From: Nitrospirota bacterium
Lineage (GTDB): Bacteria; Nitrospirota; Thermodesulfovibrionia; Thermodesulfovibrionales; JdFR-86
DNA: 35,329 nt
NCBI GenBank assembly: GCA_016207905.1
Contig: JACQZC010000009.1
Coordinates: 1-35,329, forward strand
Direction of reading: 5' to 3'
The notes under the pieces are model-generated. The model saw only the letters and a program-made list of their open reading frames with translations, did not search any database and was not told where the DNA came from. Shown here piece by piece: positions 20,617-35,118 of the stretch (position 1 is the first letter of the stretch; each line of letters opens with the position of its first letter). The translations under genes were made by a program, and so were the position numbers.

Positions 20617-20844
20617 TCAGATGTTTTCGACTAAGTCTTTGTCTTTATTTGGTTTTTCAGCCATTTCACAGTTCAAATGTTCAGATAAATCATGGTTTTC
20701 TTGAACAGAGACACCATTGATTTTTAAGGGATTCTCCTCTAAGCATCGGGTCTGTTCAAATCCCTGTTCAGATAAATTGGGTTTCAGCTTTGAATCTAAA
20801 GGGTTTTCCTGTTCAAATAACCTTGCCTTAGAAATCTTCTTCAT
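20617..20844 (-). CDS. 75-residue hypothetical protein with internal duplication
   Basis: ATG 20844 is preceded by GGGAGGT at good spacing, which supports real translation. The protein is hydrophilic and acidic. It contains two related blocks of about 24 residues: FEQENPLDSKLKPNLSEQ and LEENPLKINGVSVQENHDL. The duplication is visible in the DNA as paired GTTCAAAT / TGTTCAGATAAAT elements. No family is recognised. It diverges from the gene at 21063 and shares its regulatory region. Confidence 0.5.
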   Translation of the reverse strand: MKKISKARLFEQENPLDSKLKPNLSEQGFEQTRCLEENPLKINGVSVQENHDLSEHLNCEMAEKPNKDKDLVENI

Positions 20845-20878
20845 AATACCTCCCTAAGCCAGCTTAAATTAAAAAATA

Positions 20879-20932
20879 TGAAATTGTCCATATGAAATCC
20901 TTCACCTGAAATCCTTCACCTTGACAATTTCA
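20879..20932. promoter_or_regulatory. Operator-like inverted repeat around a 14-bp tandem repeat
   Basis: TGAAATTGTC (20879-20888) and GACAATTTCA (20923-20932) form a perfect 10-bp inverted repeat. Between them the 14-bp unit TGAAATCCTTCACC stands twice in tandem (20893-20906, 20907-20920). The array lies between the divergent genes starting at 20844 and 21063, where a regulator could act on both. Confidence 0.55.
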
Positions 20933-20956: not shown

Positions 20957-20988
20957 CCTTGACAGGAAAGAGAGGTCTGCTTAAGATA
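20957..20988 (+). promoter_or_regulatory. Promoter block, copy A (partner 35119-35150)
   Basis: TTGACA (20959-20964) and TAAGAT (20982-20987) with a 17-base spacer form a sigma-70-type promoter. The whole 32-base block recurs on the minus strand at 35150-35119 with two differences. An imperfect hairpin (GTCCTTCCT / AGGAAGGGAC, about 20999-21027) lies in the leader. Confidence 0.75.
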
Positions 20989-21062
20989 TAACAGTCGGAG
21001 TCCTTCCTGCTTCAACGGAGGAAGGGACAGCATCCATTGTAGGCAAAAAGGAGGGAGTTGAG

Positions 21063-21959
21063 ATGTCAGAAACAATGAATCAAAAAGGAGTTGAACAAAA
21101 TGTTTTTGGGCTTCCTGTAGACCATGATATTATATTTTCAAATCATAAAGGTATTTATAAACAAGGAGTAGAAAAACGTCAGACAAAACTACTTAAAAAA
21201 ATTTCTTTCATCAAAACATTTTTGAAAGTTGATGAAAAAATAATTCTTATAACAACTGGATGTTCTCCTATGTCTATTTTCGAAGAATGGTCAATGGGAT
21301 GGATTGCGACTTATCTAAAACGTTCTTTGTTAGTTTTTACCAATAAACGTATTTTCCACATTCCAACAGAACGGGATTATTCCTATAGAAATTCAATAGC
21401 CCAAATCCTTTATGGTGACTGCCAAGCAATTGAAATGAAAGAAGGTCTAAGGAGAAAGCTTGTTATTAAATATAAAAGCGGAGAAAAAGAAAAATTTCCT
21501 TATATAGCAAGAACAGAGAGAAAGAAAATAAAAGCGTTGCTTAAGACTATTTCGCTGGAAGGTATACAGAGTAATACAGCGGGGAGAATACATCTTTGCC
21601 CTCGTTGCACAAAAGAACTAACCAAAAATGAATACACATGTCCAAACTGTCGTCTTGATTTTAAGGACAAAGCTGAAGCTAAAAAAATTTCTATTGTTTA
21701 CCCTGGTGGTGGGTATTTTTATACTAGGCATCCATTGTTAGGAGTAGCTGATGCAATAACAGAATCTATCCTTCTTCTTTTTGTAGTTTTATCATTGGTT
21801 GATACACTGCAAGGTGGTAAAGATGGCTTTAACTCGTTTGTGCTTTTTTCAATAATATTAGCACTTGAAAAAGTAATAACAGTTTATCATTCTAATCATT
21901 TTATTAAAGAATATATTCCAAAAGAGAAGGAGATAAAACCTATAATTGCGAGTCAATGA
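21063..21959 (+). CDS. PH-like, zinc-ribbon, two-helix membrane protein (cassette-like)
   Basis: ATG 21063 follows AAGGAGGG. The N-terminal 170 residues resemble a bacterial PH-like domain (KSLLVFTNKRIFHIPT, then a beta strand pattern). A zinc ribbon follows at about 178-200 (CPRC...CPNC). Two hydrophobic helices lie near residues 233-250 and 261-278. The PL-x7-TE-x4-LLF segment there resembles the end of the protein encoded at 33682. The gene is AT-richer than its neighbours, has its own promoter block, and is followed 28 bases after its stop by an attC-like hairpin, so it looks like a transferred cassette. Its function is unknown; a membrane-linked sensing or defence role is only a guess. 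Confidence 0.7.
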   Translation: MSETMNQKGVEQNVFGLPVDHDIIFSNHKGIYKQGVEKRQTKLLKKISFIKTFLKVDEKIILITTGCSPMSIFEEWSMGWIATYLKRSLLVFTNKRIFHIPTERDYSYRNSIAQILYGDCQAIEMKEGLRRKLVIKYKSGEKEKFPYIARTERKKIKALLKTISLEGIQSNTAGRIHLCPRCTKELTKNEYTCPNCRLDFKDKAEAKKISIVYPGGGYFYTRHPLLGVADAITESILLLFVVLSLVDTLQGGKDGFNSFVLFSIILALEKVITVYHSNHFIKEYIPKEKEIKPIIASQ

Positions 21960-22195: not shown

Positions 22196-22546
22196 TTATT
22201 TCCAGTTGCTTAGAAACTCAACCCTGTTTTTTATGTCCCCTGCCCTGAGTGTAAACCAGAGTTTCATTAGCCTTTTTAGCAGAACGCCGACAGGCAACTG
22301 GTCTGATAGTATAATCCCTGAATGCTCCTTGCCATGGCTGATAAACTCATCATGCAGGACCTTAAAGTCCTTTTTGTTGTGGGTGAAAATGGCTCTTTTT
22401 CCCTTTACGGCAAAAATAAGTTGCTCTTTATCAGACAGATTGTAGTTCCCTGCCTGCTGTGTTGTAATTACATCAACGCCTCTGTTTAAAAGGGCTTGCG
22501 CAAAGGATAAAGGCACATCTTCGTCAAGATAGAGCCTTATCCTCAT
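22196..22546 (-). CDS. DUF5615-family PIN-like protein, putative toxin
   Basis: The 116 residues begin MRIRLYLDEDVPLSFAQALLNRGVDVITT, the typical start of DUF5615/Mut7-C-like PIN-fold proteins. Acidic residues Asp8 and Asp10 and the THNKKDF segment near residue 55 resemble the metal site. Family members are predicted RNases that pair with DUF433 antitoxins. The ATG overlaps the upstream DUF433 stop by four bases (22543-22546), typical of toxin-antitoxin operons. It could instead be a solitary housekeeping nuclease, but the pairing argues against that. Confidence 0.85.
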   Translation of the reverse strand: MRIRLYLDEDVPLSFAQALLNRGVDVITTQQAGNYNLSDKEQLIFAVKGKRAIFTHNKKDFKVLHDEFISHGKEHSGIILSDQLPVGVLLKRLMKLWFTLRAGDIKNRVEFLSNWK

Positions 22547-22815
22547 TTTCGGAGGAGCTTTTTAATGGTGTCTTCGCTGTCTTCGTCTATCTCCCTGTCT
22601 ATCTCTGACTGGTGCTCGTAATAGTAAGAGAGGGCATCATGGATTTGTGCGAGGCTGAGATGGGGAAACTCCCTCGCAAGGTCTTCCGGTGAGAAGCCAA
22701 GTTTGTAATACGCAATTATATTTGAGAGCCGTGTCCGTGTTCCTGCAATCAGCGGATTACCGCCTCCCACATCCTTTCGTCGGGTTATATATGGATGGGT
22801 GATTTTTGTTGACAT
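22543..22815 (-). CDS. DUF433-family protein, putative antitoxin
   Basis: At 90 residues it shows the DUF433 pattern: ITRRKDVGGGNPLIAGTRTRLSNIIAYYKLGFSPEDLAREFPHL, followed by a helix-turn-helix-like LSLAQIHDALSYYYEH. DUF433 proteins are DNA-binding antitoxins of PIN-like toxins. A GGAGGCGGAG stretch precedes the ATG. The gene is first in the pair and overlaps the DUF5615 start, so it probably represses the operon itself. Confidence 0.87.
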   Translation of the reverse strand: MSTKITHPYITRRKDVGGGNPLIAGTRTRLSNIIAYYKLGFSPEDLAREFPHLSLAQIHDALSYYYEHQSEIDREIDEDSEDTIKKLLRK

Positions 22816-34637: not shown

Positions 34638-34862
34638 TTATTCTGATGTTGCCCCTTCCAGAATCAGATTTTCCGTAGAGAGATTGAAAATATCCTCTTT
34701 CCGGTATCTTTCTGTTGCACCTATAATCTCAAGCCCAATAATCTTTCCATTTTTATCAAGGTCAAGGTTTATTCCCTCTTCTATTTCCTTAGTGTGTGCA
34801 ACTTTTTTCTCCTGAATCCTGATATAAAGTGCATCAACCTCTTTATCATATTCAATCTTCAT
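34638..34862 (-). CDS. DUF2283-family protein, putative antitoxin
   Basis: The 74 residues show the DUF2283 pattern: [21 protein letters not shown], then [26 protein letters not shown]2283 genes are commonly paired with DUF4258 genes in predicted toxin-antitoxin operons, and here the partner ends eight bases upstream. An AGGAGG precedes the ATG. Its product probably neutralises the DUF4258 partner. Confidence 0.88.
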
Positions 34863-34870
34863 AGCTCCTC

Positions 34871-35092
34871 CTACTTGTTCCTGTCAATAACTGTAATTAT
34901 AATTATTCTACTGCTTTCCTGCTTAAAAGTCACTTTAAGCCACTTCTTGCCTATATGCTTAAAGGCATTCTTTCTGCCTTTTATAGAGTCCTCTATCTGC
35001 TCAGAATGAAAGATTGTATTTCTGATATCATCTTCACTGATTTCTCTCCACCTCATCTGCCTTCTTGCATGCCTGCTAAAATATATCTTCAT
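34871..35092 (-). CDS. DUF4258-family protein, putative toxin
   Basis: The 73 residues match DUF4258, a RelE-like fold: FSRHARRQMRWREISEDDIRNTI near the start and WLKVTFKQESSRIIIITVI near the end. Family members are predicted mRNA-interferase-like toxins. It is first in a four-gene minus-strand run, with promoter block copy B (35119-35150) about 27 bases upstream. AAAGGAG lies rather far (about 15 bases) before ATG 35092. Confidence 0.86.
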   Translation of the reverse strand: MKIYFSRHARRQMRWREISEDDIRNTIFHSEQIEDSIKGRKNAFKHIGKKWLKVTFKQESSRIIIITVIDRNK

Positions 35093-35118
35093 TTAATTAA
35101 GAAAAACTCCTTTGCCTT

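Follow-up and report, generated by a model that had tools for sequence, protein, structure and literature searches.

Two places in the window, the 35,329 nt stretch of DNA analysed here, carry a near-identical promoter-like block of 32 bp on opposite strands. The window is contig C9 of a 2.03 Mb genome assembly of 98 contigs, and the question is where a block shared in its spacer as well as in its hexamers came from, and whether it serves the genes beside it. An earlier note on this DNA saw in it a recent copy or a bound regulator, not just sigma-70 constraint. We conclude that the two blocks, A and B (Table 1), are probably right-end relics of an IS256-family IS, carrying a complete outward-facing sigma-70 promoter and perhaps driving unrelated neighbours.

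Blocks A and B

As the earlier note had described, A and B are identical at 30 of 32 positions, with both differences in the spacer, and both spell TTGACA-N17-TAAGAT. No such match is expected by chance (0 in shuffled windows), and A and B are the only TTGACA-N15-19-TAWRAT sites in the window, against 0.25 expected. The -10 hexamer, TAAGAT, agrees with the consensus at 4/6 positions. The further claim that sequences outside the block do not match did not hold. As an inverted pair, the two can be followed over 64 nt at 73 % identity, because both copies continue into the same IS right end (GGAGT..TTC.T), which is soon lost in B.

The region of the right inverted repeat (IRR) beside A has one mismatch to each IRR half, contains an exact GGAGTCCTTCCTGCTTC at 20997-21013, and can form a hairpin in the transcript. 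B has no IRR and is cut off just downstream of the promoter, where the next gene starts. A candidate second IRR downstream of B (34645-34659, 14/20 matches, inside the DUF2283 gene) was within the control range and was taken as chance. The upstream flank of A (TGAACCCATACA) is common to the copies at C37, C94 and C36; B has another leader type (GGCAAAGGAG) and another upstream flank (CTGAGAAA). Judged by these upstream modules and leaders, A and B are best classed as family cousins in different subfamilies, not as recent copies of each other.

Table 1. Features of blocks A and B in the window, and genes downstream of these and other copies of the block
Feature	Position	Strand	Remarks
Block A, outward promoter-like	20957-20988	+	CCTTGACAGGAAAGAGAGGTCTGCTTAAGATA
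-35 of A	20959-20964	+	TTGACA; 17-bp spacer
-10 of A	20982-20987	+	TAAGAT
Relic codons in A	20958-20984	+	L D R K E R S A stop
IRR region beside A	20995-21034	+	TCGGAGTCCTTCCTGCTTCAACGGAGGAAGGGACAGCATC
Gene downstream of A	21063-21959	+	298 aa; starts 74 nt after block A
Block B, outward promoter-like	35150-35119	-	CCTTGACAGAAAAGAGATGTCTGCTTAAGATA
-35 of B	35148-35143	-	TTGACA; 17-bp spacer
-10 of B	35125-35120	-	TAAGAT
Relic codons in B		-	L D R K E M S A stop
IS right-end remnant after B	35099-35118	-	AAGGCAAAGGAGTTTTTCTT
First gene downstream of B	34871-35092	-	DUF4258 (PF14076), 73 aa; start codon 26 nt after block
Second gene downstream of B	34638-34862	-	DUF2283 (PF10049), 74 aa
Downstream of copies at C34, C64			DUF2283 (read by hand)
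Downstream of copy at C37			64-aa ORF, then PemK/MazF toxin (read by hand)
Downstream of copy at C6			DUF433 (read by hand)
Downstream of copy at C23			Gp49/HigB-type protein and HTH-like partner (read by hand)
Downstream of copy at C56			NTP_transf_2 (read by hand)
Downstream of copies at C71			weak DUF4258; DksA-like (read by hand)
Downstream of copy at C39			DUF559 (read by hand)
Downstream of copy at C96			iron-sulfur protein, Hdr-like by eye
Downstream of copies at C62, C20			lipoprotein-like proteins (read by hand)

The parent IS

The flanks of the copies have in common a downstream stretch ending GGAAGGGACAACATC. The block corresponds in relatives to the 3' end of a transposase gene, in frame, CTT GAC AGG AAG GAG GCG GCT GCT TAA (LDRKEAAA, then stop), and the stop codon TAA forms part of the -10. 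Long open frames enter the block in frame in four genomes (...KFRRVQGYREIPKLVAVLQQKNLDRKEAAA, then stop), and the transposase stop is followed by ~50 noncoding bases that include an inverted repeat ending GGGACAACATC. The protein of L059 (426 aa) is an IS256-family transposase (NF033543, 223.7 bits with a cut-off of 150; PF00872, E 1.3e-32). A complete IS of 1,444 bp (L129) with both terminal inverted repeats (IRL, GATGATGTCCCTGTAAGTTGTTGAAGTAGGAAG; IRR, GATATTGTCCCTTCCTTTCGTTGAAGTAGGAAG) was found in G001, which belongs to a related genus; the terminal repeats of the parent IS are GATGWTGTCCCT...GTTGAAGTAGGAAG. The right boundary is sharp. Two CG02 MAG contigs (L164/L166) are identical as far as GGGACAATATC and unrelated beyond it, a pattern that we read as the signature of a mobile end, and the flanks diverge at the same boundary in many copies.

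The parent thus conforms to the IS256 family (NF033543, PF00872), as its transposase passes the NCBIfam and Pfam cut-offs and terminal repeats are present at both ends. In contrast, the window copies have no transposase domain, retaining only the last 8 transposase codons, and no left end. There is no IRL near A or B, A having only an IRR and B neither end. Lacking a transposase gene and two ends, A and B are remnants and not IS copies. Elsewhere in the window's genome the transposase survives in two fragments, neither of them intact, beside two left ends, though this is a draft assembly, which can lose full copies of a repeated IS, and intact copies may be absent from it. The two fragments match aa 1-260 and aa 280-426 and are 71 % identical to L059.

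An internally deleted IS256 copy of ~0.5 kb (L115, G000 C96:20241-20745) consists of the left end joined to the C-terminal 147 codons of the transposase and the right end. IS256-family elements generate target-site duplications of about 8-9 bp. None was recognisable by eye in the flanks of L127 and L115, and L129 abuts the end of its contig on the left.

In the intact IS of G001, arms AAGCGACC...GGTCGCTT surround the transposase ribosome-binding site (L129:20-95, + strand), and the same arms are present in L127. Read-through RNA forms a strong hairpin here, in which the ribosome-binding site is concealed (-22.3 kcal/mol, z -3.35), whereas RNA started inside the IS does not fold so. This looks like a translation shut-off against impinging transcription, and the fold recalls the way in which IS transposase genes are known to be shielded from read-through. 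Outward promoters are believed to serve transposase expression from circles, and IS256-family elements are described in PMC3299598 as transposing through circles. It is doubtful that the right-end promoter would do so here, because the leader hairpin is predicted to hide the ribosome-binding site when transcription enters from outside.

A structured leader or riboswitch was also considered, as the leader first seemed riboswitch-like; this stretch proved to be the inverted repeat of the IS, and the leaders of 19 loci gave no relevant match in Rfam.

Copy number and distribution

Whereas the earlier note treated the block as a pair, it belongs to a genome-wide family. Counting it with up to three mismatches and listing the genes downstream, as had been suggested there, gave 9 occurrences in the window's genome, and the genes are unrelated. 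Exact sites for the pattern TTGACA-N16-18-TTAAGATA number 19 in this genome, against 0 for the reversed pattern used as a control. With a model built from sequence alone over 62 positions, ~33 copies are recovered at E<1e-5. Right-end copies (~33) outnumber the remaining transposon parts by about 15 to 1. The finding named in the earlier note as telling against its own reading, that the block is only the edge of a longer ordinary repeat, is therefore largely what was seen, in that the block is part of an IS256-family right end; that repeat, however, itself carries the promoter.

Copies are numerous (~18) in just one of 60 relatives, G001, which belongs to another genus of the same family; the others have none or few matches, mostly weak. 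In a scan of 84,980 species the exact pattern was present in only three MAGs, two named Thermodesulfovibrionales bacterium and one Nitrospirae bacterium CG02 41_53, and viral contigs gave 0 matches to it.

Proposed origin and retention of the right ends

We propose that the last codons of an IS256-family transposase gene would have supplied the -35 and the spacer, with the -10 straddling the stop codon. With the inverted repeat about 10-15 bp beyond the -10, the right end of the intact IS would constitute a complete outward sigma-70 promoter. Many copies of the IS would have inserted in the lineage, the transposase and left end being deleted later. Short right-end fragments (30 to 85 bp) persist at >30 places, starting just upstream of the -35 and facing the adjoining gene, which is the orphan gene at A and the DUF4258-DUF2283 pair at B.

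As a promoter-based search would itself find promoters, right ends were collected by the inverted repeat only, kept if they were similar downstream of the -10, and aligned to the intact IS. In this promoter-blind set, the left homology edge lies within 16 bp upstream of TTGACA in ~12 of ~17 non-full copies. The clustering is significant even with edges limited to a 165-bp span (binomial 3e-9, a test that assumes independent copies; the look-alike pair L178/L180 was counted once). TANNAT is kept as the -10 in 17/18 copies that include the promoter. Over these 18 copies, -10 positions 1, 2, 5 and 6 are 99 % conserved, and positions 3 and 4, at 47 %, are among the most variable columns. However, column 25 (-10 position 3, the third base of the stop codon) and column 7 (the third base of an Arg codon) vary as codon synonymy predicts, and conservation of the hexamer is thus not clean proof of selection on a promoter.

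The -35 and -10 hexamers, 17 bp apart, lie inside an IS end and face out, as in an outward IS promoter. A promoter role of the blocks is likely; they would initiate transcription and be retained for that reason. From the left edges and the -10 pattern we infer a tendency for right ends to be retained as promoters. Rather less likely is that selection has cut an IS256-family element back to its outward promoter at dozens of sites, with left edges that end just outside the -35, and has so made it a standard promoter, ready for use by incoming genes (toxin-antitoxin-type modules in particular), in this Thermodesulfovibrionales lineage.

The clustered left edges could also mark a defined small mobile derivative. 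The short fragments would then be internally deleted ISs with residual left tips, moved in trans by a transposase, and the promoter a passenger. They do resemble MITEs, including Correia-type elements, in being short, dispersed, non-coding and IS-derived, and the edges are clustered and not scattered. Some subgroups have common upstream flanks (L004/L010; L003/L018; L005/L043/L089/A), as for a unit copied together, and an internally deleted copy with both ends exists (G000 C96, above). TGTC(CC) occurs shortly before the block in some G001 copies, but this match is too short to count. Unlike MITEs, the window copies have no recognisable second inverted repeat, B lacking even the IRR, and only two left inverted repeats were found in the whole genome. 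We regard a MITE-like origin as rather improbable.

Somewhat less probable still is that the blocks are decayed IS ends with no transcriptional role, whose likeness to a promoter is a by-product of the IS sequence. The looser, IRR-anchored G000 set does include copies truncated inside the promoter (C13, C32, C6 and C82), so promoter retention is not absolute. Inert relics would not account for left edges that cluster just outside the -35, for the kept TANNAT, or for B, which keeps the promoter yet loses the IRR.

A regulon, in which a transcription factor recognises the conserved spacer and controls the downstream genes together, is very unlikely. The spacer is conserved in at least 19 copies, but it consists of inherited transposase codons, so no bound regulator is needed, and the conservation of its columns does not exceed that of the inverted repeat (0.915 vs 0.939). 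The downstream genes are unrelated (PemK/MazF toxin, DUF433, DksA-like, DUF559, lipoprotein-like, orphan), and relatives outside the two genera have few or no copies. Of the origins offered in the earlier note, copying as opposed to sigma-70 constraint therefore stands; the regulator is superfluous, and A and B, from different subfamilies, are not recent mutual copies. Ordinary housekeeping sigma-70 promoters alike by constraint can be dismissed, as near-consensus hexamers would explain neither the conserved spacer nor the IRR that follows, 0 chance matches are expected, and the flanking homology shows the block to be continuous with a transposase gene.

If A and B are outward promoters left by an IS256-family element, a transposase coding tail doubling as a sigma-70 promoter gives a concrete origin for a 'propagated promoter', and the left-edge distribution offers a route to testing whether bacteria keep IS ends for their promoters. 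More generally, spacer conservation between promoters can be plain transposon descent and need not imply a regulator.

Genes downstream of the blocks

Most of the copies that were read by hand are followed by the start of a gene in the same orientation. Only genes read by hand were used here (Table 1); an automated orientation count was noisy, with mechanical ORFs overlaying the block. The genes downstream of different copies are mutually unrelated, so that the same promoter-like block stands before non-homologous genes in one genome. Accessory and toxin-antitoxin-type genes look frequent among them, though no enrichment is claimed. The 298-aa protein encoded downstream of A has weak bacterial-PH, zinc-ribbon and TackOD1 matches, all below the cut-offs, and no homologue among 20 relatives. 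Close to A, a second toxin-antitoxin-like pair (DUF5615-like and DUF433-like by eye) lies at 22196-22815 on the minus strand, with no recognisable copy of the block upstream.

Comparison with known elements

Complete outward promoters have been experimentally confirmed in IS3, IS4, IS5, IS6, IS481, IS982, IS1380 and ISL3, as listed in PMC9330008 (section 4.4), and IS256 is cited in that review only for -35 fusion promoters. Like the complete outward promoters, the present right ends have both hexamers, -35 and -10, within the IS terminus and are directed through the inverted repeat into neighbours. They differ from the confirmed cases listed there in belonging to the IS256 family and in that the candidate promoter overlaps the last transposase codons and stop. 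Mobile promoters (Matus-Garcia, Nijveen and van Passel 2012), as cited in PMC9208149 and PMC8049555, are near-identical short promoter regions before non-homologous genes in one genome. The blocks share this arrangement with the putative mobile promoters; unlike them, they have an identified source element, and the left edge of the fragments lies just upstream of the -35. The blocks are thus of a known kind (IS outward promoter or mobile promoter), in what is apparently an undescribed family.

Adjoining repeats

Upstream, the blocks are bordered by mosaics in which several families of short dispersed repeats are combined. A repeat of ~234 bp upstream of A (~20657-20890) recurs at 92 % identity in front of the HigB-type copy of C23 (L012), and overlaps a 75-aa minus-strand ORF (20617-20844). 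Short dispersed repeats also adjoin block B (10322-10360/35190-35228 and 7533-7566/35283-35316), and are of the types CCCCTCACCC..CTCTCCCGCAAGGGGAGAGGG and CCC..CCTTGAYGGGAGGGGTTAGGGGAGGGTG.

Short dispersed repeats in intergenic mosaics, with such palindromes beside and inside these IS ends, recall REP/REPIN elements with RAYT. However, the block is not palindromic, and a RAYT/IS200 origin was rejected, the only Y1_Tnp protein of the genome being unrelated and unlinked to the block. Several IS right ends (L117, L120, L124, L125, L136, L139, L145 and L147) contain small palindromes of the CCTGTCTGCGTGCATCGCACAGGCAGG and TCCCGATGCTTCGGGA types, inserted at comparable points between the -10 and the end of the IS, as though REP-like elements favoured this site.
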